Assembly (NCBI GenBank): GCA_014360905.1 | Contig: JACIWW010000006.1 | Span: forward strand, 1-64,000 | Reading direction: 5' to 3' | DNA length: 64,000 nt | Origin: Chloroflexota bacterium | Lineage (GTDB): Bacteria; Chloroflexota; Anaerolineae; UBA2200 | In this document: in pieces, positions 31,661 through 44,923 of the stretch | Numbering within the stretch: position 1 is the stretch's first letter | Layout: each line of letters opens with the position of its first letter | Notes under the pieces: generated by a model | The model's database searches: none | What the model was told of the DNA's origin: nothing | What the model saw: only the letters and a program-made list of their open reading frames with translations | Program-made: the position numbers and the translations under genes

Positions 31661-32032
31661 CTACCCCCTCTGTGGCATATCCCTGCTGGCAAGTACATTG
31701 ATCCCAGTCCCCAAAGCGTTGGGCTGAATCACCTGACCAGCACGTACAGGCGCTGCCACCGTAACCTGCTGCAACTCTTCCAACAGAGGGAAAATCTGAT
31801 TCTTAGGGAAAGGCCGCTCAGTATAAACTGGCAGCAGAGGATGGAGACCGTTTACCACGCGTACTGTAGTTGTGACCGTGCGTCTGGGATCGGTGATCTC
31901 ATCCTGCGCATAGGTCAGACCACGCTTGCAGGCTTGTCCCTCTACGGATACCACCTTGCCCTCTTCTACGGTGACATCCAGGCGACAACCCATGGGGCAG
32001 GTGATGCATGTCAGGATAGTTTTGTTCTTCAC
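31661..32032 (-). CDS. DUF1667 protein (glycerol dehydrogenase operon)
   Basis: 123 residues, typical of DUF1667. Four cysteines (C9, C12, C16 in CITCPMGC, and C35) could hold an iron-sulfur cluster or zinc. It overlaps the upstream FAD/NAD oxidoreductase by 4 nt and is followed by the PanE-like gene. DUF1667 regularly accompanies this GlpA-like plus FAD/NAD pair in anaerobes, where it is thought to be a small redox subunit; that is inferred from neighbourhoods. Confidence 0.9.
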   Translation of the reverse strand: MKNKTILTCITCPMGCRLDVTVEEGKVVSVEGQACKRGLTYAQDEITDPRRTVTTTVRVVNGLHPLLPVYTERPFPKNQIFPLLEELQQVTVAAPVRAGQVIQPNALGTGINVLASRDMPQRG

Positions 32033-33306
32033 TTTCGCTTCCTCACCCCCACCCTCAAGATAGTGGCGAGCTTGAGTCGGTCATAGAGGTCAGGTATCAA
32101 CTGCACCGTGACCATCTCGCCTGGCCGCACATAGCGCTCTGTCTTGCGCCAGATATCCGTCCCATCTGCCTCGAGGATCACATTTACTTTCTCTTCGATA
32201 GGCTCACGCACACGCAACTGCAATCGCTGTGGACCAAGAGTCAGACTCTCGGGATCGAGTAATTGGGGCACTACATAGCGCACATTATCTCCTGCTACAA
32301 CACGCAAGCGACGCACCGCAGCAGGAGCCAACCCAAGTGCGTATTCGGCAGCGCTGCGTCCAGCAACTTCCCCAGCCATCGTCACCCAGTCTACCAGATC
32401 GTAGACATGCACAACGTTCCCCGCAGCGAAAAAGCCGGGCAAAGAAGTGCCCATCCCCTCATCTACGATTGGCCCACCAGTGACAGGGTCAATCTGCACG
32501 CCAACCCGACGCGATAGCTCATTTTCCGGGATAAGTCCAACAGAAAGCAGCAAGGTGTCGCAAGGGATTATCTCTTCGCTTCCCGGAATGGGGCGCCACT
32601 GCTCATCCACAGCCACAGATACAACTGCTTCCACACGCCTGTCTCCCTTTATTTCGCGCACGGTGTGGCTCAACTGCAACGGGATGCCAAAATCCTGTAG
32701 GCATTGTACGTAATTGCGCTTCAGTCCAGAAAGATACGGCATGATCTCCAACACTCGTTCCACTTTAGCCCCTTCTAAGGTCAAGCGGCGTGCCATGATC
32801 ATGCCAATATCGCCAGACCCTAGGATCACAAAGCGCCGTCCCGGCATGTAACCCTCGATGTTGACCAAGCGCTGCGCCGTTCCAGCAGTGTACACTCCCG
32901 CTGGACGAGTGCCTGGGATAGCCAATGCTCCTCGCGTTCGCTCGCGACAGCCCATGCCAAAAACAATGGCGCCAGCTTTGATCTCTACAATGCCATCCCG
33001 CGAATTGGTAGCATAAATACTCCGCTGGGAAGTAACTTCTAGTACCATGGTATCCAACAATGCCTGCACCCCAGTTTGGTAAACGCGATTGATAAAGTGT
33101 TGTGCATAAGCGGGGCCTGGCAGGTCAGATCCAAGCACTTCCAGACCAAATCCATTGTGGATGCACTGCTGCAAAATGCCTCCCAACTCCTCCGCGCGCT
33201 CGACAATACAGACGTGCTCCGCGCCGCGCTCACGGGCGGCAATAGCTGCAGCAAGCCCTCCTGGACCTCCTCCTATCACTACAACATCATAATGCAAGGT
33301 CTTCAA
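32029..33306 (-). CDS. FAD/NAD(P)-dependent oxidoreductase (GlpB-like partner)
   Basis: 425 residues, with FAD-binding GGGPGGLAAAIAA at the N-terminus, a second dinucleotide site near VILGSGDIGM (about 165-175), and the C-terminal motif ...FFAAGNVVHVYDLVDWV typical of thioredoxin-reductase-like flavoproteins. Between two redox genes it probably passes electrons from the GlpA-like dehydrogenase to an acceptor. It is 6 nt behind the GlpA-like gene and overlaps DUF1667 by 4 nt. The direct acceptor is unknown. Confidence 0.88.
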   Translation of the reverse strand: MKTLHYDVVVIGGGPGGLAAAIAARERGAEHVCIVERAEELGGILQQCIHNGFGLEVLGSDLPGPAYAQHFINRVYQTGVQALLDTMVLEVTSQRSIYATNSRDGIVEIKAGAIVFGMGCRERTRGALAIPGTRPAGVYTAGTAQRLVNIEGYMPGRRFVILGSGDIGMIMARRLTLEGAKVERVLEIMPYLSGLKRNYVQCLQDFGIPLQLSHTVREIKGDRRVEAVVSVAVDEQWRPIPGSEEIIPCDTLLLSVGLIPENELSRRVGVQIDPVTGGPIVDEGMGTSLPGFFAAGNVVHVYDLVDWVTMAGEVAGRSAAEYALGLAPAAVRRLRVVAGDNVRYVVPQLLDPESLTLGPQRLQLRVREPIEEKVNVILEADGTDIWRKTERYVRPGEMVTVQLIPDLYDRLKLATILRVGVRKRK

Positions 33307-33312
33307 CGCTAG

Positions 33313-34779
33313 CTACACCTTTGTCTTGGTATCATTCCTGTCCTTTGTCTCGCGCACAACGAACTCGGAACCTGGCCCCTTCTTCGTGATGGCAGTTAGT
33401 GGGAGGCCTAGCTCGCGGCTCAGGATATGAATCACGCGAGGGGTATCAAATCCTCCCTGACATCGCCCGGCTCCTAGACGCGTCCGTCTCTTGAGCGCGT
33501 CATATGTGCGTGCCGGGACAGGGGCATGAATCGCCGCGACAATCTCGCCCTCGGTCACCATCTCGCAACGGCACACAATACGCCCATAGCGCGCATCCCG
33601 AGCAATCAGCAAGGCTTGTTCCCGATGCGATAGTTCGTGAAAGCGCGGTGGAGAACGGCGAATGGGATTGTAGTCAGGTTTTTCCCGCAATTCTAGCCCG
33701 CACTCGCGCAGCAGATCAAGGACAAACTCTGCAATGGCTGGCGCCGCAGTTAAACCCGGGGATTCAATCCCCGCTACGTTGATCAAACCAGGAGCCTGTA
33801 CAGGGGCTTCGATCAAGAAATCGCCTGTACTGCCGCTGGCGCGCAGACCCGCAAAAACAGCGATAACATCGCGCCGCTCCAGTGTAGGCACCAGTCGCTG
33901 CGCCCCCGAGAAAACCTCTTCCAGACCCTGCGGAGTTACTGAAAGATCGCTCTTGTCCTGGATATCCACTGCATTTGGGCCAATCATGGTGTTGCCGTGT
34001 GTCGTGGGTGTCACCAGAATGCCTTTGCTAATCGGCGTAGGGCAGGGGAAAAGCACAGCACGTACCCGACTCTTCTCGCGGTCAAAAACGCAATACTCGC
34101 CCTTGCGTGGTGTGATGGAAAATCCGTGCAGACCAGCCTTGGCCATTAGTTGATCAGCATACAAACCGGCAGCGTTGATCACAAAACGACTCAAAAACTG
34201 GCCGTGGCTTGTTCTGACCCCAGCTAGCCTGCCATTCTGTCGGATGAAATCCGTGACTTCGGTCTCCAGAAGCAGGTGCACGCCATTGACCACTGCGTTT
34301 TCCGCCGCGGCAATGGTCAGCAGAAAGGGATCCACAATACCACCGGTGGCAGCATACAATGCTCCACGCACTTCAGGATTGACCAATGGTTCAATGCGCC
34401 GCATCTCTTCTCCAGAGATCACGCGCATGCCTGTCACGCCATTCTGTACGCCGCGCTGATACAAATCATCGAGGGTGCGCAAATCCTCTTCATCCAAAGC
34501 CACGACATAGGTGCCACAACGTTGAAAAGGCACATCCAAATCTGCACAAATCTGGTCATACACGCGATTGCCCGCCACATTGAGCGAGGCTTTGAGCGTG
34601 CCCGGCTTGGCGTCGTAGCCAGCATGGACAATGGCCGTATTGGCTTTGGAAGCGCCCGAACAAACATCGGACTCACGCTCCAAAAGGAGCACACGCAGCT
34701 TATAGCGGGAAAGCGCGCGGGCGATGAAACAACCTACTACTCCGCCGCCTACGATGATGATGTCATACCAAGCATTCAT
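33313..34779 (-). CDS. Glycerol-3-phosphate dehydrogenase, anaerobic GlpA-like
   Basis: 488 residues. The N-terminal FAD site is GGGVVGCFIARALSRY, followed by the DAO-family segments SGASKANTAIVHAGYD and GLYADQLM. The C-terminal BFD-like domain has C-x-C in RIVCRCEMV and a third cysteine in GAGRCQGG. The fourth BFD cysteine is missing; an Asp (GGFD) is in its place. The enzyme oxidises glycerol-3-phosphate to dihydroxyacetone phosphate. It lies between glpK (upstream, 32 nt) and the FAD/NAD gene. Close homologues may act on other 2-hydroxy substrates, but the adjacent glpK favours glycerol-3-phosphate. Confidence 0.9.
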   Translation of the reverse strand: MNAWYDIIIVGGGVVGCFIARALSRYKLRVLLLERESDVCSGASKANTAIVHAGYDAKPGTLKASLNVAGNRVYDQICADLDVPFQRCGTYVVALDEEDLRTLDDLYQRGVQNGVTGMRVISGEEMRRIEPLVNPEVRGALYAATGGIVDPFLLTIAAAENAVVNGVHLLLETEVTDFIRQNGRLAGVRTSHGQFLSRFVINAAGLYADQLMAKAGLHGFSITPRKGEYCVFDREKSRVRAVLFPCPTPISKGILVTPTTHGNTMIGPNAVDIQDKSDLSVTPQGLEEVFSGAQRLVPTLERRDVIAVFAGLRASGSTGDFLIEAPVQAPGLINVAGIESPGLTAAPAIAEFVLDLLRECGLELREKPDYNPIRRSPPRFHELSHREQALLIARDARYGRIVCRCEMVTEGEIVAAIHAPVPARTYDALKRRTRLGAGRCQGGFDTPRVIHILSRELGLPLTAITKKGPGSEFVVRETKDRNDTKTKV

Positions 34780-34811
34780 ATTCCACTGCTCGAATCTGCT
34801 TCCTCTGCCGA

Positions 34812-36329
34812 TTACTTCTCCACCCAGTGCATAGCTCTCTGCACTGCCTTGCGCCAGCCACGGTAGCCAGCTTCGCGTTTTTCTTCATCCCACTGAGGAA
34901 TGAAAACGCGATCAACCGCCCAGTTCTCACGCAGTTCCTCGATGCTCTTCCACAGGCCTGAAGCTAAACCCGCCGCGTACGCTGCCCCCAACGCCGTTGT
35001 CTCCCGGACTGTAGGCCGCACGACCTGAACTCCTAGGATATCGGACTGCAACTGCATCAGAAAATCATTGACGACCGCACCACCGTCCACCTTCAACGAC
35101 TGCAACCTCAACCCCGCATCGGCATGCATGGCTTCCAATACCTCGCGCGTCTGGTAGCAAATAGCTTCCAGTGTAGCACGTACGAGGTGTGCCTTGGTCA
35201 CATAGCGGGTAATGCCTAAGATCGCTCCTCGTGCATCCATGTCCCAATAGGGAGCAAATAAACCGGAGAATGCTGGCACAAAGTAAATGCCACCAGCATC
35301 TTCTACCGAGCGCGCAATCTCTTCCGTCTCAGCTGCACTCTTGATCAGGCCCAGGTTGTCACGCAACCATTGCACGGCTGCTCCAGTGATGGCGATGGAG
35401 CCCTCCAATGCATAGACGCAGTGCCCTGATTCAAAACCATAGGCTACAGTGGTGAGGAGCCCGCTTTTGGAAAGCACAATCTGCTCGCCGATGTTCAGCA
35501 GCATAAAACAACCAGTGCCATACGTATTCTTAGCCTCACCAGGTGCGAAGCAGGTCTGTCCTACGAGAGCTGCCTGCTGGTCACCGAGATCGCCACACAC
35601 GGGTATGCGCGCTGGCACCGGCCCTTTGGTCTCCGTGTAGCCGTAGAACTCGCGGTCGCTGGATGGGCGAATAGTGGGGAGCATTGTTCTGGGGATGTCA
35701 AGCGCCGCAAGGATTTCGTCGTCCCAATCCAGCGTGTGTAAGTTCATCAGCATCGTACGAGAGGCATTGCTATAGTCAGTGACGTGTACTCCGCCATTCA
35801 CGCCCCCCGTGAGGTTCCAGATCAGCCAGGTATCTACATTGCCAAAGAGCGCTTGCCCTAGTTTCGCTTTCTCGCGCACACCAGGTACATTGTCCAGAAT
35901 CCATTTGATCTTGGGGCCGGAGAAATAGGTGGCGATAACTAGGCCAGTCCGCTCTCGGACAAGGGGCTCAAGATCCTGCTGGATAAGGCTCTGGCAGATA
36001 TCTCGAGTGCGTGTGCATTGCCAAACAATGGCATTGCATAGCGGTTGGCCAGTGGTTCGGTCCCAGACAATGGTCGTCTCCCGTTGATTGGTGATGCCAA
36101 TGCCAAGCACCTGCTGTGGGTTGATACCACTTTCATCGAAGGCTCGCCGGATAACCTGGCAGGTGACACTCCAGATTTCCTTAGGATCGTGCTCTACCCA
36201 GCCGGGTTTGGGATAGATTTGTTGATGTTCCTGGTACGCTGAGGCAACCACCTGACCTGTGTGGTCGAAGATCATGAAGCGTGTGCCGGTCGTCCCTTGG
36301 TCAATGGCAGCAGCATAGGCGGTTGTCAT
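34812..36329 (-). CDS. glpK: Glycerol kinase
   Basis: 505 residues, normal for GlpK. The N-terminal ATP-binding region reads [16 protein letters not shown], and the glycerol-binding and adenosine motifs [27 protein letters not shown] and [10 protein letters not shown] are present. It phosphorylates glycerol to glycerol-3-phosphate for the dehydrogenase encoded next. The ATG follows AAGGGAGG. It is the first gene of the minus-strand operon glpK-glpA-like-FAD/NAD-DUF1667-panE-like, with its own promoter (36369-36397). No glycerol facilitator gene is adjacent. It faces a DeoR-type regulator that could control both directions. Confidence 0.96.
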
Positions 36330-36676: not shown

Positions 36677-36729
36677 TTTGAAACAAAAAATTGCTCGAAA
36701 TAGTTTTGTTATGCACATCAAGAGGTATC

Positions 36730-37494
36730 ATGCTTGCTGAAGAGCGCCGTGCGATCCTGCTAGATAAACTGAGAGAGAAGGGCTACATTGAAGTTGCAGA
36801 AATAGCCGTACCGCTCGAAGTGTCCCCAGCAACGATCCGCCGCGATCTAGCGCATCTGGAACGAGGAGGACAACTCATTCGTACGCGTGGTGGTGCTGTG
36901 ATCGCTGTGCCAAGCACCACTCTGGAACCCCCTTATGAGATCAAACGCCAGCGTAACATCGAGCAGAAACGCCGTATTGCAGCTGCAGCAGCGGAGATGG
37001 TGCGCGACGGTGAGACCATTATCTTAGACGCTGGCTCCACAACTTACGAACTGGCGCTCTTGCTCGCACGCCGGCGCAATCTCACTGTAGTAACTAACGA
37101 TCTGCAAATCGCGGTGAAGTTGGCTGCCAATCCCAACATCGCTTTGGTCTGTACGGGAGGTGTCGCCCGTGCTAACGTGTACACCCTACTTGGTCCCCAA
37201 ACAGAAGCGTTCCTCAGGACTCTTCGCGTGAACAAGACCTTCTTAGGTGCCGATGCTATCCATGAAGATGGCGTTATCGGCAATGTCGTTTTGGAGGAAG
37301 TGGCAATAAAGCAAGCCATGCTTCATGCAGGCGAGCAAGTGATCGTGTTAGCCGATTCGTCGAAATTTGGGGTTATTGGCTTTGCCAGGGTGTGTGACTT
37401 GGGAGAAGTGGATGTTCTCATTACTGATACAGACGTATCCACTCGCGCTCTTGACATGCTCAAGGCATGGCCTGTGGAAGTGAAACTCGTTTGA
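36730..37494 (+). CDS. DeoR-family transcriptional regulator (SgcR/GatR-like)
   Basis: 254 residues from ATG 36730 (MLAEERRAILLDKLREKGYI), preceded by AGAGG; an in-frame TTG 13 codons earlier lacks family residues. The N-terminal helix-turn-helix (about 6-57) has the DeoR motif VSPATIRRDLAHLE and is followed by RTRGGAV. The C-terminal DeoRC domain (about 75-235) binds a phosphorylated sugar and has the D-GSTTYELA and VTNDLQIA motifs. It is the first gene before PTS IIA, so it most likely controls the cluster and perhaps glpK. Effector unknown. Confidence 0.92.
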   Translation: MLAEERRAILLDKLREKGYIEVAEIAVPLEVSPATIRRDLAHLERGGQLIRTRGGAVIAVPSTTLEPPYEIKRQRNIEQKRRIAAAAAEMVRDGETIILDAGSTTYELALLLARRRNLTVVTNDLQIAVKLAANPNIALVCTGGVARANVYTLLGPQTEAFLRTLRVNKTFLGADAIHEDGVIGNVVLEEVAIKQAMLHAGEQVIVLADSSKFGVIGFARVCDLGEVDVLITDTDVSTRALDMLKAWPVEVKLV

Positions 37495-37510
37495 ATCAAT
37501 AGAGGTGTTC

Positions 37511-38038
37511 GTGAGCAATAGTGGTGTGGTGGACAATACAAAATCGGTAACATGCAACGAAGTCTACTTGGATGAGAAGTTAGTATGTTTAAATGTGCGT
37601 GCTGCGGACAGTGATACTGTCATTCGCAAGTTGGCCGAAATGTTATATGCTTGCGGCGCTGTAAAGGACAGCTATGGCGGTGCAGTATGTAAACGAGAGC
37701 AGCAATTCCCAACTGGTTTACCAACACGAGGCGTTTATGTTGCTATTCCACACGCTGAAGCAGAGCATGTTAATTATACAGCCATCGCTGTCGCTACATG
37801 CTCGCCAGCGGTCCCTTTTGGGAATATGGCCGATCCAGAAGAGAAACTGCCGGTCGAATTGGTAATCATGGTTGCGGTTGCGGACAGCAGCCAGCAAGTG
37901 AAGATGCTTCAGCGTCTAGCAGAGGCTTTTGGTGAACCAGAGACTCTTCTAGCACTCAAAGAAGCCAGGACCCCTGCAAAGGTTGTCTCGCTTCTGCGAG
38001 ATAAGATCCTGGCGAATGGCGATGGTGAGCCAGAATGA
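37511..38038 (+). CDS. PTS galactitol-type IIA component
   Basis: 175 residues from GTG 37511, with AGAGG 5 nt upstream (an in-frame GTG at 37505 overlaps that site). It is an EIIA domain of the fructose/mannitol/galactitol group, with the phosphorylated histidine H81 in VAIPHAEAEHV. It receives phosphate from HPr, whose gene is not seen here, and passes it to IIB. It follows deoR by 16 nt and precedes IIC. SgcA in E. coli is its counterpart in the related cluster. Confidence 0.9.
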   Translation: MSNSGVVDNTKSVTCNEVYLDEKLVCLNVRAADSDTVIRKLAEMLYACGAVKDSYGGAVCKREQQFPTGLPTRGVYVAIPHAEAEHVNYTAIAVATCSPAVPFGNMADPEEKLPVELVIMVAVADSSQQVKMLQRLAEAFGEPETLLALKEARTPAKVVSLLRDKILANGDGEPE

Positions 38039-38179: not shown

Positions 38180-39487
38180 ATGGGAGCCATTTCCAGTGCG
38201 ATCAATTGGTTTATTGGCCTAGGTCCGATTGTCATCGTGACCGTGATGATGTTTCTTGTGGGTCTAGTTTTTCGGGTTTCGTGGGGAAAAGCTCTAGTTG
38301 GTGGTCTGCTTGTCGGCGTTGGCTTGCAGGGCCTATTCCTAGTGGTGAATATGATCGTCGAAAACCTGGAACCAGCAATGGCAGCTCTTGCCGCCAGATT
38401 TGGATGGAGCTCTACCATAGTGGATGTAGGCTGGGGGACTGCTGGACTAGCCTTTGGATGGCCAGGATTGGCGGCTGTTTATGTTGGCATCCTGGCGGTC
38501 AATTTGGTGCTAGTCGCCCTTCGCGTACAAAAAACCCTATGGACTGATATCTGGGGCATGTGGCATGCTCAGACATTCGGAGCCTGCATTTGGGCACTGA
38601 CTGACAGTGTGGTAATCGCGATTGTAGCAGCTGTCATCTACTCAGTGTTCGGCGTCGTTCTCGCCGATTGGCAGAAAAAAGAATTCCAGAAATTCTTGAA
38701 CATTCCTGGTATTTCTTTCCCCGCCGGGCCAACTGCACATTTTACTGCTATGGGTATCCCTGTGCTTTGGCTTCTGGATAGGATTCCATTTATTAAAGAT
38801 ATAGAAGCCGATGTAGATGCTATACGCGACCGTTTTGGAGTGCTCGGAGAGCCGGTTGTGATGGGCGCGGTGGTTGGGGTAATCCTGGGTATCATAGCCG
38901 GGTACAATGTAGCCAAGATCTTGGGTTTCGCTGCTGTCGTGGCAGCTTTGATGGTTTTGCTGCCGCGCATGGTGGCGATTCTGTCAGAAGGATTAGTCTC
39001 CCTCACCACAGAAATCGTTGACTTTCTCCGCCGTCGATTTACAAAAGGGGAGGAAAAATACGAGTATGGGGAAGAGCCGGTTTCGGTATCCGTTGATGTA
39101 GCAGTATATGTTGGTCCGCCTCCGGTAATCGCTGCATCTGTAATTGGTATGCCTCTAATGGTACTCCTAGGCGCTATCCTGCCTGGAAACCAGTTGTTGG
39201 CTATTACTAGCCTGGCATCAGTTCCCTATTATTTGGGAGCGATCATGCCTTGGGCCAAAGGTAATATCGTGAAAGCGGTTTTGGCGATGTTGATTGTGGC
39301 CATTCCTATCTTCTACACCTCGACTTATCTTGCCCCAGTCTACACGGCTGCTTTTGCGAAACTCGGTCTGTATGCTGAGCAGATCGCGGCTGGTAAACAG
39401 GTGGCGGCTTTTGGACTAGGTGGTGGCGATCTTATGGCCTTCATCTGGGTAGTGTTTTTCCGATTGATCGGGTTAGCGAAGATTTAG
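38180..39487 (+). CDS. PTS galactitol-type IIC permease
   Basis: 435 residues with roughly ten membrane helices of the galactitol (EIIC-GAT) family. The glycine-rich segments PGAG-free loops and the family regions GLGPIVIVTVMMFLVGLVFR (start), FPAGPTAHFTAMGIPVLW and VVMGAVVGVILGIIAGY are visible. The ATG follows AAGGAGGAG. It imports and phosphorylates a sugar or polyol with IIA and IIB. E. coli SgcC and GatC belong to the same family. The substrate cannot be read from sequence. PTS genes are rare in Chloroflexota, so the cluster may have been acquired. Confidence 0.92.
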   Translation: MGAISSAINWFIGLGPIVIVTVMMFLVGLVFRVSWGKALVGGLLVGVGLQGLFLVVNMIVENLEPAMAALAARFGWSSTIVDVGWGTAGLAFGWPGLAAVYVGILAVNLVLVALRVQKTLWTDIWGMWHAQTFGACIWALTDSVVIAIVAAVIYSVFGVVLADWQKKEFQKFLNIPGISFPAGPTAHFTAMGIPVLWLLDRIPFIKDIEADVDAIRDRFGVLGEPVVMGAVVGVILGIIAGYNVAKILGFAAVVAALMVLLPRMVAILSEGLVSLTTEIVDFLRRRFTKGEEKYEYGEEPVSVSVDVAVYVGPPPVIAASVIGMPLMVLLGAILPGNQLLAITSLASVPYYLGAIMPWAKGNIVKAVLAMLIVAIPIFYTSTYLAPVYTAAFAKLGLYAEQIAAGKQVAAFGLGGGDLMAFIWVVFFRLIGLAKI

Positions 39488-39532: not shown

Positions 39533-39583
39533 CTGCGTAGATTTCGGATATTGCTAATATAGCACAAGGGGGGGTTGTTTTGG

Positions 39584-39886
39584 ATGGAGGACAAAGTCAA
39601 ACACATTGTGGTCGCCTGCCCGGCAGGAATTAATACCAGCACCATTGGTGTTGCTGCATTGGAGGATATGATCCGTGAGCGGAAACTCAGCCGCTTTGTG
39701 AAAGTTGTCAAATCCAACTTGGCAGGGCTAGATCGTTGGGCGGAGCAGGCTGACTTGATCATTGAAATGACGCCTCTTTCGCGGACTTTTCGCGTGCCGG
39801 TTGTGAGTGGTGTACCCTTCATCAGTGGGACCAAAGCTGAGAAGAGGGCTTTGGCTGAAAGCATCCTGAAACAGCTCGGTTATTGA
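39584..39886 (+). CDS. PTS galactitol-type IIB component
   Basis: 100 residues from ATG 39584, about 9 nt after a run of seven G. The phospho-accepting cysteine is C12 in VVACPAGINTSTIG, in the expected N-terminal loop. It takes phosphate from IIA and transfers it to the sugar carried by IIC. It is separated from IIC by the 39498 hairpin and lies 158 nt before the URO-D-like gene. SgcB is its counterpart in E. coli. Confidence 0.88.
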   Translation: MEDKVKHIVVACPAGINTSTIGVAALEDMIRERKLSRFVKVVKSNLAGLDRWAEQADLIIEMTPLSRTFRVPVVSGVPFISGTKAEKRALAESILKQLGY

Positions 39887-40044: not shown

Positions 40045-41199
40045 ATGACCCCGAGAGAACGAGTAACATCCACATTGAGTCACCGTGAGCCAGACCGCGT
40101 GCCCATCGGAATCGGAGCCAGTGGATCCGCGATCCACGATGCGGTATATAGAGCATTGAAGGATCGACTGCACATTGAGGGCGAGATTGAGCCATTCCGG
40201 CGCGGACACGGTGATAACTACTACGATGATCGTGTTTTTGATGCTCTTGGCACGGATGTACGACATGTCTTTCTGAATTTTTATCACTCCGACCATTTCG
40301 TGCGCAAAGAGCTGGGTGCGGGTGGCTTGTATGACCCGTTTGTCGATGCTTGGGGCATAACTAGAGAGACGAAAGGCGGCCTACACGCCTTCACGGGTAA
40401 TCCCCTGGCCAAAGCGACAACAATATCTGATATCGATGGATATCCCTGGCCGAACCCGTATGGGGATTCTGGCTTACTGGAAGGGGTAAAAGAGCGGGGT
40501 GAATACTTGCGGCACCATACGGCTTTCGCCGTTGCGACGCGCTCTCCAACTTCAGGCATTTTTGAGCATTGCTGGGTGCTGCGTGGCATGGAAAATTTCA
40601 TGGTAGATATGATTGCCGACCCTAAACTGGCTATACGGCTGGTAGACCGAGTGACAGATACCATTATGAGGTATTACGATGTTTTATTGACCGCGGTAGG
40701 ATCGTACGTAGACATCGTGGAGACGCAGGATGATTATGGTACTCAACAGAACAGCTTTATGTCTCCTGAGTTATTTCGCAAAATGATCAAACCAGCTAGA
40801 CAACGATTGCATGAGCTGATACGTAGTAAGGCTCCGCAAGCTCGCATTTATCTGCACAGTTGTGGTTCGATACGGAACCTGATCCCTGATCTCATTGAAC
40901 TCGGAGTGGATATTTTAAACCCAGTCCAGCCATTGGCTGCAGGGATGGATCCAGCAGAGTTAAAGGCTAATTTTGGTGAGAAGCTGGTGTTCCACGGTGC
41001 AATCGACATGCAGCAAGCCATGCCAGGCTCGCTTGAAGATGTCTCGCGTGAAGTCCGCACACGTATTCGCCAGCTTGCGCCGGGCGGTGGATACATCCTC
41101 GCTCCGGCAAACCTTGTCCAAAGCGATGTGCCTCTAGATAACCTTTTACGGATGGTTGAAGATGCCAAAAGATATGGTCGATACCCAATCGCGGTGTAA
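40045..41199 (+). CDS. Uroporphyrinogen decarboxylase-like (URO-D/MtaA-type) protein
   Basis: 384 residues starting MTPRERVTSTLSHREPDRVP, the usual start of URO-D-superfamily proteins outside haem synthesis. A zinc-type H271-x-C273 (YLHSCGSI) resembles the metal site of methylcobamide:CoM methyltransferases, and DILNPVQPLAAGMDP lies near the expected barrel end. True HemE lacks this H-x-C. AAGGAG precedes the ATG. No corrinoid protein is adjacent. It lies inside a sugar cluster where such proteins recur, so it may process the imported sugar, but the reaction is unknown. Confidence 0.85.
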   Translation: MTPRERVTSTLSHREPDRVPIGIGASGSAIHDAVYRALKDRLHIEGEIEPFRRGHGDNYYDDRVFDALGTDVRHVFLNFYHSDHFVRKELGAGGLYDPFVDAWGITRETKGGLHAFTGNPLAKATTISDIDGYPWPNPYGDSGLLEGVKERGEYLRHHTAFAVATRSPTSGIFEHCWVLRGMENFMVDMIADPKLAIRLVDRVTDTIMRYYDVLLTAVGSYVDIVETQDDYGTQQNSFMSPELFRKMIKPARQRLHELIRSKAPQARIYLHSCGSIRNLIPDLIELGVDILNPVQPLAAGMDPAELKANFGEKLVFHGAIDMQQAMPGSLEDVSREVRTRIRQLAPGGGYILAPANLVQSDVPLDNLLRMVEDAKRYGRYPIAV

Positions 41200-42292: not shown

Positions 42293-43387
42293 GTGAAGCC
42301 GATTGAGAGCCTAGAACAACTACAGCAGATGTGCCATCTCTCCGCACTGTCAGGCCACGAGGAGGCTATGATCCAGTACATGAAGGCGGAAATGTCACGC
42401 TTCGTGTCTGACGTGCGTGTAGATCGCCTAGGTAATGTGATCGCTTGCCTACCTGGTACGCAGGCAAAAGGCCCAAAAGTCATGATTTCCGCGCATATGG
42501 ACGAGCTTGGGTTTATGGTGCGCAAAATCGAGGATGATGGATGGATACGATTAACGCGAGTAGGTGGCGTTCCGGAGAAGAGCCTTCCAGCACAGCGCTT
42601 GGTTTTGCGCGGTTCCAAAGGCGATGTATTTGGTGTGATTGGACCAAAGTCTCATCACTTGACACCGCCGGAGGAGAAATTCAAGGTTACCGAAATCAAT
42701 GAGCTCTATGTGGACATTGGTGCACACTCGAAGGCTGAAGCTGAGGCCATGGGTATTTATCCCGGTACTCCGGTCACATATCATGGTTTCTTCCAGGAGA
42801 TGCTGGGTGGGCAATTTGCAGGAAAGGCACTCGATGACCGAGCCGGTTGTTTTGTCTTATTACAGCTCATACGCTTGCTGGCAGGCAAAAAGAGAGCTGC
42901 CACAATATATTTTGTTGCCTCTGTGCAGGAGGAATTTAATATCCGTGGTGTAGTGACGGCAGGGTTTGCCATCAACCCGGACATGGCAATTGGATTGGAT
43001 GTAGCTGTTGCTTGTGATACACCGGATCTGAAGCCCCTTGCAGATATCCGATTTGGAGGCGGACCGGTCATTAGCCATTATACCTTTCACGGTCGGGGCA
43101 CATTGAATGGTCTGATTCCTAATCCACGACTTCGTCAATACGTTACTGAGACTGCTGCCCGTTTAGGCATCCCTCTACAGCATTCTGTGTTCTTAGGAGG
43201 ATTAGGAGAAACCTCTTATTTAGCTGTCGTGCGGGAGGGGATACCCGCCCTGGACATGGGATTTCCCGTCCGTTACACTCATGCTCCGATTGAAGTGGGC
43301 TCACGGCCGGATATGGAGCATTTGATCATTCTACTGGCGGAGGTATTGGATAGCATAGATTCAGCTCTTGACCTATCCCGGGGATAG
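42293..43387 (+). CDS. M42-family metallo-hydrolase (FrvX/SgcX-like)
   Basis: 364 residues from GTG 42293. It has the M42 co-catalytic dinuclear metal set: H68 in SAHMDE, D181 in LDDRAG, E213/E214 in VQEE, D236 and H330 in RYTHAP. M42 enzymes are aminopeptidases (PepA, tetrahedral complexes). FrvX and SgcX of this family lie in PTS gene clusters of E. coli and were once annotated as endoglucanases. Here it lies between the SDR and the BtpA-like gene. Whether it acts on a peptide or on a sugar derivative is open. Confidence 0.9.
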   Translation: MKPIESLEQLQQMCHLSALSGHEEAMIQYMKAEMSRFVSDVRVDRLGNVIACLPGTQAKGPKVMISAHMDELGFMVRKIEDDGWIRLTRVGGVPEKSLPAQRLVLRGSKGDVFGVIGPKSHHLTPPEEKFKVTEINELYVDIGAHSKAEAEAMGIYPGTPVTYHGFFQEMLGGQFAGKALDDRAGCFVLLQLIRLLAGKKRAATIYFVASVQEEFNIRGVVTAGFAINPDMAIGLDVAVACDTPDLKPLADIRFGGGPVISHYTFHGRGTLNGLIPNPRLRQYVTETAARLGIPLQHSVFLGGLGETSYLAVVREGIPALDMGFPVRYTHAPIEVGSRPDMEHLIILLAEVLDSIDSALDLSRG

Positions 43388-43440
43388 TCTAGCAATAGCT
43401 TGATTCAAACTGTATTTTTAGCCTGATGAGGAGGATGAGA

Positions 43441-44247
43441 TTGTCCTGGTTACAGGATGTTTTTGGAACGGATAAACCTATCATCGCTATGTGTCACCTG
43501 CGTGCTATGCCCGGCGACCCTGCCTATGACCGTAGTGGAGGCATGAAAGCCGTCGTGGAGGCTGGGCGCAGGGATTTGTTGGCATTACAGGAAGGCGGCG
43601 TAGATGCGGTGATGTTCTCCAACGAGTTCAGCCGCCCCTATCTGACACAGGTGGAAACCGTGACCGTGGCTGCCATGGCGCGTGTCATTGGCGAGTTGTT
43701 GCCAGAAATTTGTATCCCATTTGGAGTGAACGTGCTCTGGGATGCACGTGCTTCCCTTGATTTGGCTGTGGCCGTCGGAGCGAAATTCGTGCGCGAGATC
43801 TTCACAGGTGTATATGCTAGCGACTTTGGACTGTGGAATACCAACTGCGGCGCCGTAGTGCGCCACCAGCATGCGATCGGGGCGCAGGATGTGCGTTTGC
43901 TGTTCAACATCTATCCAGAGGCAGCAAAATACTTGGCTGACCGCCCTCTCACGGACATAGCGGTCTCCACGGTATTCAATACACTGCCTGATGGCATTTG
44001 CGTTTCGGGAATAACTGCTGGACAGGAGACAGATACCAGTCTCCTTGCACAGGTGAAGAAAGCTGTGCCGGATATCCCGATCTTTGCCAACACTGGTGTG
44101 CGCACAGATAATGTGGAGGCTCAACTCTCTGTTGCTGACGGTGCAATCGTGGGCACCTATTTCAAACAGGATGGCATTACTTGGAATCCTGTAGATGTTC
44201 GGCGAGTGAAGGAATTCATGGCCGTGGTGCGGGCTTTTCGTGGCTAG
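43441..44247 (+). CDS. BtpA/SgcQ-family protein
   Basis: 268 residues. GAGGAGG at 43428-43434 lies within the first ATGs (43426, 43435), so the start is probably TTG 43441, 6 nt after the site, giving MSWLQDVFGTDKPIIAMCHL, the usual family start. It is a TIM-barrel-like protein with conserved FGVNVLWDARASL and GVRTDNVE...ADGAIVGTYFK. The family includes the photosystem I biogenesis factor BtpA and SgcQ of the E. coli sgc cluster; the latter has no known reaction. Here it sits between the M42 gene and the epimerase, as part of the same gene set. Enzymatic role unknown. Confidence 0.85.
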   Translation: MSWLQDVFGTDKPIIAMCHLRAMPGDPAYDRSGGMKAVVEAGRRDLLALQEGGVDAVMFSNEFSRPYLTQVETVTVAAMARVIGELLPEICIPFGVNVLWDARASLDLAVAVGAKFVREIFTGVYASDFGLWNTNCGAVVRHQHAIGAQDVRLLFNIYPEAAKYLADRPLTDIAVSTVFNTLPDGICVSGITAGQETDTSLLAQVKKAVPDIPIFANTGVRTDNVEAQLSVADGAIVGTYFKQDGITWNPVDVRRVKEFMAVVRAFRG

Positions 44248-44260
44248 CCGGAGGCCACCT

Positions 44261-44923
44261 GTGATCCAGATAGCACCCTCTATGGCCTCGGCTCCATTCC
44301 TTCATCTAGCTAATGTCGTTCAGGATCTCGAAGCTGCTGGAGCCAATATCATTCACTTTGATATCGAAGACGGCACTTTTGTGCCCATGATGACCTTGGG
44401 CACGCGCATCATAGGCGAATTGCGCCCATTGACTCACTTGCCCTTTGATGTGCATCTGATGATGCACGCGCCAGATTGGATTATCCCCGCAGTAGTCTCC
44501 TTAGGTGCAAACTGGGTCTCGGTACACTATGAGGCATGTTCCTACCCGCACCGTACCTTGCGCTTGATCCGACAGTTGGGTGCGCGGGCAGGTTTGGCCT
44601 TTAATCCCAAGACACCTTTGCCTGATTTGCGTTACCTACGCCGCTATCTTGATTTCGTCCTGATCTTGACTACGGAACCTGAGTATCCGGACGCTGACTT
44701 TTTGCCCGAGGTATTGCGCAAGGTAAGAGAAGGGCAAAAGATGCTTGGTCAGCAGGGCATAGACTGGGTGGTTGATGGAGGGATTACAACGGAGAACATT
44801 GGCGAAGCCGTACGGGCGGGAGCGAATGTGATTGTGGCAGGACGCAGTGTGTTCCACAATGGAGCCGTCGCCGAGAATCTCGTAGCTTTGCGTACTGCTG
44901 CTATTGCCAGCATCAGCATATAA
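44261..44923 (+). CDS. Ribulose-phosphate 3-epimerase-family protein (SgcE-like)
   Basis: 220 residues from GTG 44261, with GGAGG (44250-44254) 6 nt upstream. An in-frame GTG at 44240 would overlap the BtpA stop. Rpe-fold metal/catalytic residues are kept: IQIAPSMAS (Ser near the start), HFDIEDGTFVP (His, Asp), FDVHLMM (His) and WVVDGGI (Asp). Members of this family interconvert ribulose- and xylulose-5-phosphate or allulose-6-phosphate-type sugars. The position at the end of an sgc-like cluster suggests a cluster-specific phosphosugar rather than housekeeping Rpe. Confidence 0.9.
   Translation: MIQIAPSMASAPFLHLANVVQDLEAAGANIIHFDIEDGTFVPMMTLGTRIIGELRPLTHLPFDVHLMMHAPDWIIPAVVSLGANWVSVHYEACSYPHRTLRLIRQLGARAGLAFNPKTPLPDLRYLRRYLDFVLILTTEPEYPDADFLPEVLRKVREGQKMLGQQGIDWVVDGGITTENIGEAVRAGANVIVAGRSVFHNGAVAENLVALRTAAIASISI

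Follow-up and report, generated by a model that had tools for sequence, protein, structure and literature searches.

A URO-D superfamily protein of an sgc-type PTS operon as a candidate corrinoid-dependent demethylase

Introduction

The window analyzed here, a stretch of 64,000 nucleotides from the genome of an uncultured Chloroflexota bacterium, contains a gene for a URO-D-like protein with an H-x-C motif, placed among the genes of a PTS. This raises the question of what such a protein contributes to a sugar operon, and whether it could act on methyl groups taken from the imported substrate. To our knowledge, no mechanism has been established for the anaerobic removal of O-methyl groups from carbohydrates. 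No description of PTS-coupled corrinoid demethylation was found in the portions of the literature covered by our search, a body of text that leaves out most subscription journals. Here, we propose that the protein is a corrinoid-dependent, probably O-specific demethylase for the PTS substrate that relies on a corrinoid protein encoded at another locus of the genome, and we assign this reading a probability of roughly 0.45.

Results

The URO-D gene and its family

The ORF at 40045-41199 encodes 384 amino acids and scored 85.9 bits against the Pfam URO-D model (PF01208; gathering cut-off, 23.9), placing the protein in this superfamily. A single scan of genome contigs gave 54 relatives confirmed by tblastn, from Chloroflexota, Planctomycetota, Armatimonadota, Lentisphaerota, and other groups, and 167 of the 396 genomes of the class, its own genome counted, had a match at E ≤ 1e-40 when at most the best four candidates per genome were scored. 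These data indicate that the ORF is not a chance frame. The stretch YLHSCGSI is present, with HSCG as residues 271-274. Among the matches listed for samples of the order (seven genomes, its own included), the class (396), and the phylum (400, partly overlapping the class set), no closer ortholog with more than 44% identity was found, and the other six genomes of the order gave no closer relative. The family set used below has 116 distinct members scoring at least 280 bits, the window protein included.

The window genome has 10 URO-D matches. Two URO-D paralogs on its contig C18 (L103, 1124-12299) lie by sulfatase-, NagA-, NagB-, and uronate-isomerase-like genes, named by eye. An expansion was observed in G007, G043, G060, G095, G131, G283, G294, and G301, with at least 52 URO-D matches each; many of the counts per genome are lower bounds, with the best 52 candidates scored.

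The operon and its mosaic structure

The gene lies between those for PTS IIB and an SDR, as the original prediction had stated, and the surrounding cluster contains homologs of all seven sgc genes of Escherichia coli K-12 (blastp, E 4e-7 to 8e-124). The features, with identities as percentages, are as follows:

36691-37494, + strand: DeoR-family regulator; SgcR homolog (28%), 87% to the sister species at the same locus
37505-38038, + strand: PTS EIIA-2; SgcA homolog (28%)
38180-39487, + strand: PTS EIIC, galactitol type; SgcC homolog (31%), with its best non-self match among 396 genomes in the URO-D cluster of G027
39575-39886, + strand: PTS EIIB; SgcB homolog (24%)
40045-41199, + strand: URO-D superfamily protein, 384 aa; H271-S-C273, and Asn356 aligned to the third zinc Cys of MtaA
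41223-41963, + strand: SDR oxidoreductase, 23 bp past the URO-D gene; 56% to the SDR of a comparable operon in G091 (L183)
42293-43387, + strand: M42 peptidase-family hydrolase; SgcX homolog (43%), 92% to the sister species
43426-44247, + strand: BtpA/SgcQ-family protein; 61% to SgcQ, 93% to the sister species
44240-44923, + strand: ribulose-phosphate 3-epimerase family (Rpe); SgcE homolog (34%), 85% to the sister species

Just upstream and divergent (31661-36329, - strand), glycerol kinase-, glycerol-3-phosphate dehydrogenase-, and FAD oxidoreductase-like genes and a small cysteine-containing protein were recognized by eye.

The same locus was located in the sister species G082, with the flanking genes matched by eye. 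There, the regulator, M42, BtpA, and Rpe proteins are 85-93% identical to those of the window, whereas the PTS proteins are merely 27-40% identical; no match for the window URO-D or SDR was found in the stretch, which instead holds TPP-dependent E1 genes and an amidohydrolase. The window operon is thus a mosaic in which the PTS and the URO-D gene have been exchanged. TPP-dependent E1a/E1b genes occur in PTS operons of the class, noted at L181 (13637-15645) and L109 (16544-19920; from G027, where E2 is present too), and the version of the sister species is one of these operons.

The mosaic structure, together with the absence of a closer relative in the order, would agree with the gene being a passenger, brought in when the PTS cassette was exchanged and now without a function in the operon. 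The ORF is nevertheless intact, the family-invariant residues are present, and the SDR gene begins only 23 bp downstream, which makes a passenger very improbable.

The predicted metal site and the fold

In the alignment to MtaA (PDB 4ay7), HSC of the window protein paired with HIC of MtaA, and the third zinc Cys of MtaA, within PGCG, aligned with Asn356, so the His-Cys-Cys zinc set is incomplete. We take the zinc ligands of MtaA to be His237, Cys239, and Cys316, and the alignment agrees with these positions with an offset of nine. By this comparison, two of the three MtaA ligands are retained and the predicted site is His-Cys-Asn, not the His-Cys-Cys of MtaA and MtbA. The claim that the zinc-ligand type of these enzymes is kept holds, then, for H271 and C273, and fails at the third position.

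In a 55-sequence alignment, position 271 was His in 54, position 273 was Cys in 46 and Asp in nine, and position 356 was His in 45 and Asn in eight, the window protein among these eight. The 116 members showed HxC in 86, HxD in 29, and RxD in one, i.e., Asp273 in 30 of 116, and position 356 was occupied by His (92), Asn (21), Gln (1), Cys (1), or a gap (1). The family-profile alignment paired the usual His at 356 with a His of the solved URO-D chains, so this residue need not be a metal ligand. HxD was found in L009, L010, L012, and L109, which include the nearest PTS-linked relatives; loss of the metal site in close homologs, named beforehand as evidence against the metal-based proposal, was therefore partly seen. 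The tree grouped the window protein with L109 (from G027) and L010, both HxD/His, at a weak support of 0.396, and this group then joined L011 with a support of 0.581; the neighboring clade was HxD/Asn, with one HxC/Asn exception.

According to one study (PMC10418091), a His-Cys-Cys site is the mark of S-methyltransferases, and in O-methyltransferases a carboxylate or a non-ligand residue takes the place of one or both Cys. Under that rule, Asn356 in the window protein and Asp273 in 30 of the 116 members represent the O-type replacement of a Cys ligand.

The AlphaFold2 model, based on a 50-sequence alignment, had a mean pLDDT of 93.9. Its top Foldseek match was MtaA (4ay7; E 4.2e-16; TM 0.66/0.75), followed by URO-D and MetE structures. 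The structural comparison with MtaA and URO-D ended in a tie, with VIA-align Z scores of 28.6 and 28.9, respectively, so the fold does not discriminate between decarboxylase-like and methyltransferase-like chemistry. At the sequence level, the sole PDB match of the protein itself at E ≤ 0.1 was MtaA (4ay7), and the family profile matched MtaA best (2.8e-21), with URO-D chains from 2.7e-15 and CdmB at 8.6e-7. The nearest NCBIfam models were methylcobalamin:coenzyme M methyltransferases, all far under their cut-offs (61.6, 55.0, 47.5, and 25.9 bits against 244, 235.4, 400, and 600).

That the gene encodes HemE, the decarboxylase of the heme pathway, or a decayed copy of it, is hardly credible. 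The fold, the Pfam family, and the matches to solved URO-D chains are shared, but the NCBIfam hemE equivalog gave no match to the protein at E ≤ 0.001, its motif and operon are unlike those of HemE, and genomes of the class carry tens of URO-D matches each. This identity was rejected on the NCBIfam result and the gene context.

Association of the URO-D gene with the PTS

Among the 396 class genomes, with at most the best four candidates scored per genome, the best non-self URO-D match was found in G027 (43%, 1.6e-92), and the best non-self match of the IIC protein in the 396 genomes was also in G027 (47%, 7.8e-113). Both belong to one cluster, about 1.6 kb apart, which contains on one strand genes for a zinc alcohol dehydrogenase, URO-D, IIA-IIB-IIC, a class-V aminotransferase, a regulator (by eye), E1a, E1b, and E2, and continues on the same strand with Enzyme I, transaldolase, and then a B12-binding protein gene about 12 kb downstream of URO-D. 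Upstream of this cluster are CODH/ACS-type genes and RACo (most by eye). A second relative, the Chloroflexi MAG L010, has the order B12-binding protein, URO-D, class II aldolase, IIA, IIB, IIC, class-V aminotransferase, and sugar-binding regulator, with the B12-binding protein gene directly upstream of URO-D. The PTS/URO-D unit is thus common to three genomes, and the window URO-D gene appears, from this shared arrangement, to have been co-inherited with the PTS.

The search for the same gene in other PTS clusters, proposed at the outset, succeeded in G027 and L010. No URO-D member of at least 280 bits was found with other galactitol-type IIC genes in 20 stretches (L164-L183, several of them short), which cover 22 of the 44 IIC places besides the window and G027. 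For one IIC gene, on contig C12 of G082, a member of this score lies at a distance of about 8.7 kb, slightly outside the stretch (L120). The absence from the 20 stretches makes the link look specific to the permease type of the window, G027, and L010. Other associations were observed as well. In L120 (7768-15805), the URO-D gene is near UlaA-type PTS, BtpA, Rpe-like, and phosphotriesterase-like genes (some named by eye), and a second URO-D and PTS association in the genus, with an UlaA-type permease match and a GmhA-like gene (named by eye), was seen in the window genome (contig C2; L105, 6704-10216) and the sister species (L147, 5995-9488).

The gene content of the two related clusters also bears on the demethylation of an S-methyl substrate, i.e., a thio-sugar. 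In the DHAP shunt, a class II aldolase takes part in methylthio-pentose salvage; both L010 and G027 have a class II aldolase gene after URO-D, and a class-V (NifS-like) aminotransferase gene is found in each of the two clusters. However, neither an aldolase nor a NifS-like gene is present in the window cluster, and His-Cys-Cys, the S-type mark (PMC10418091), was absent at positions 273 and 356 in all 116 members, the lone Cys356 occurring with HxD. An S-methyl demethylase is, on balance, improbable.

Corrinoid genes around family members

A corrinoid-type match was found within 6 kb of five of the 116 members, and an MTTB match also of five; the remaining 111 showed no corrinoid gene at this distance, with many of the neighborhoods incomplete. 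One of the five corrinoid neighbors (L041) is a methionine-synthase-sized frame. The missing cis corrinoid gene is the rule in this family and not an oddity of the window locus. L010 and G027, whose clusters resemble that of the window most closely, are among the exceptions. When 15 stretches around other free-standing corrinoid genes were inspected, five had a URO-D match, four an MTTB match, and six neither.

Six ORFs of about 600 aa in L194-L197 have an N-terminal corrinoid domain fused to a C-terminal URO-D domain:

L194, 617-2401 and 5606-7435: corrinoid-URO-D fusions
L195, 899-2710: corrinoid-URO-D fusion
L196, 4345-6129 and 10951-12792: corrinoid-URO-D fusions
L197, 4986-6833: corrinoid-URO-D fusion

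Each of the six has HxD, combined with either His or Asn at 356, and with 171-221 bits they fall outside the family of at least 280 bits. DeoR-type regulators were noted near these ORFs. In the arrays of L198 and L199, HxD/His family members are beside a corrinoid gene, RACo, and a true His-Cys-Cys protein, and in L200 a corrinoid gene lies between two HxC/His members. The neighborhoods within 6 kb of the 116 members also contained SDR (17), ribose-type ABC permease (11), ABC permease (8), PfkB (8), ROK (7), and SIS (3) genes, the seed names being assigned by eye.

Corrinoid machinery in the window genome and the class

None of the 12 B12-binding-domain matches of the window genome (E ≤ 0.01) is on the window contig, in agreement with the prediction of no corrinoid partner nearby. 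The genome has two B12-binding_2 matches, on contigs C15 and C23, two RACo genes, on C2 and C23, and, in an operon judged by eye to be of the CODH/ACS type, a gene for a pterin-binding methyltransferase on C2; a corrinoid protein, a reductive activase, and a methyl acceptor enzyme are therefore all encoded. The best NCBIfam matches of the C15 protein (228 aa) were methyltransferase corrinoid proteins, all under cut-off. Its identity to the G027 and L010 corrinoid proteins is 53-57%, and to one from the sister species, 82%. The C15 gene is unlinked to the window URO-D gene, and the 20-kb stretch around the sister homolog (82%) contained no URO-D or MTTB match.

RACo was present in 26 of 26 mostly URO-D-rich genomes versus 14 in a comparison set of 26 class genomes lacking a match (Fisher p 9e-5, with kinship ignored). 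The first set comprised 23 genomes with at least 25 URO-D matches plus G000 (10), G082 (7), and G027 (4), and the second, 16 listed without a match at 1e-40 and 10 that were merely not among the 167 matches. RACo may, in these genomes, serve the corrinoid protein of the Wood-Ljungdahl pathway rather than a methyltransferase. B12-binding_2, a domain found in methionine synthase too, was detected in 26 of 26 genomes, 25 of them with a frame of 214-292 aa, i.e., not solely long methionine synthase frames; the sole match in G025 was an 84-aa frame. Strict co-occurrence with corrinoid proteins elsewhere in the genome, which had been named as evidence against corrinoid-free working, was in this sense partly seen. 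Absence of corrinoid machinery from URO-D-rich genomes, a possibility that would oppose a methyltransferase, was rejected on the same 26 genomes. Nine genomes with at least 50 URO-D matches had 1 to 13 B12-binding_2 matches each.

This last disproportion is among the points in favor of a corrinoid-independent Lewis-acid metalloenzyme, an isomerase, epimerase, lyase, or decarboxylase with a sugar phosphate or sugar acid as its direct substrate, for which the corrinoid genes of relatives would be incidental. The 111 of 116 members with no corrinoid match within 6 kb make this a serious rival, and the drift of the site from His-Cys-His to His-Asp-His/Asn and the sugar-type neighbors (SDR, ABC permease, PfkB, ROK, and SIS) point the same way. 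Similarly drifted motifs are found, however, in the corrinoid-URO-D fusions, B12-binding genes occur in the two nearest PTS clusters, and the sole PDB sequence match and the NCBIfam matches are methyltransferases. We regard such an enzyme as a realistic possibility.

Discussion

Several lines of evidence favor corrinoid-dependent demethylation by the window protein. The best URO-D and IIC matches are shared by one G027 cluster, and B12-binding genes accompany the clusters of G027 and L010; corrinoid-URO-D fusions carry HxD, and corrinoid genes or RACo neighbor family members in L198, L199, and L200; His-Cys-Asn falls under the O-type rule (PMC10418091), and MtaA was the top Foldseek match; and CODH/ACS-type genes, RACo, and a pterin-binding methyltransferase are encoded in the genome, with RACo more frequent in the mostly URO-D-rich set of genomes. 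It is weakened by the window contig having no B12-binding match, by the five corrinoid neighbors in 116 members, by the unlinked C15 gene, and by URO-D structures equaling MtaA and the low support of the clade (0.396). The paralogs of L103 also count against it, their neighbors looking like genes for sulfated aminosugars or uronates, for which a methyl substrate is not obvious. The suggestion of the original prediction that the protein processes a sugar-derived metabolite or methyl group is in keeping with the gene neighborhood and with a PTS that appears to have been inherited together with the URO-D gene; its idea of working with no corrinoid was weakened by the B12-binding genes in the L010 and G027 clusters and by the unlinked corrinoid protein, RACo, and Wood-Ljungdahl-type genes of the genome.

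In the proposed route, an sgc-type PTS operon would have acquired a URO-D methyltransferase with an O-type metal site as its substrate-specific enzyme. IIA, IIB, and IIC would take up an O-methylated, polyol- or sugar-like substrate and phosphorylate it, and the URO-D protein would bind the ether oxygen of this substrate at a metal coordinated by His271 and Cys273. The methyl group would then pass to Co(I) of a corrinoid protein acting in trans, for which the C15 protein (228 aa) is the candidate, and next to the pterin-binding methyltransferase of the Wood-Ljungdahl-type operon. The SDR would oxidize the hydroxyl left by demethylation, and a sugar-phosphate route would be completed by the M42, BtpA, and epimerase proteins. 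The binding of a metal, the chemistry at the methyl group, the nature of the substrate, the partner acting in trans, and all subsequent steps are inferred. Collectively, the analysis suggests that an uncultured anaerobe may remove methyl groups from a sugar or sugar alcohol that it imports.

A broader proposal, which we consider rather unlikely, is that, in anaerobes, the methyl groups of O-methylated sugars and polyols would enter the Wood-Ljungdahl pathway through PTS-coupled URO-D demethylases sharing stand-alone corrinoid proteins, and that the expansions of the class (at least 50 per genome) would be sets of substrate-specific demethylases. If true, sgc-type operons, including the orphan one of E. 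coli, would be a family with an interchangeable, substrate-defining cassette. The shared PTS-URO-D cluster and the B12-binding genes in the two nearest clusters make the question of carbohydrate O-demethylation directly testable, and the window operon offers a point of comparison for the sgc operon of E. coli and for a protein family with tens of copies per genome.

When compared with known systems, the window protein resembles MtaA and MtbA in fold and in the H-x-C at the metal site, and differs from them in the Asn in place of the third zinc Cys, in the sub-cut-off scores, and in its location in a bacterial PTS operon. CmuA is a fusion of URO-D and corrinoid domains; the class also has natural corrinoid-URO-D fusions (L194-L197), with the corrinoid domain first, the reverse of the order in CmuA, whereas the window protein is unfused. 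With the O-demethylases and dehalogenases MtvB, OdmB, VdmB, MtoB, and CdmB, the protein shares the URO-D superfamily and a replaced Cys ligand as in the O-type class (PMC10418091); the direct comparison to this group was with CdmB only, a weak profile match (8.6e-7). These systems work with a corrinoid protein and MTII (PMC13222342), neither of which is seen in the window cluster, and CdmB is described in the same paper as having no zinc. The Mlp proteins of type 1 MGCs are likewise URO-D methyltransferase homologs of anaerobes, but they are His-Cys-Cys with few exceptions (PMC10418091), and the window protein is His-Cys-Asn by alignment and lies in a sugar operon.

The substrate of the E. coli sgc operon is called unknown in a 2026 paper (PMC13343008). 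Each of the seven genes of the K-12 operon (sgcXBCQAER) has a homolog in the window cluster, where the order is R-A-C-B-(URO-D-SDR)-X-Q-E and not the X-B-C-Q-A-E-R of E. coli. The E. coli operon has no URO-D or SDR gene, whereas the window cluster has both.
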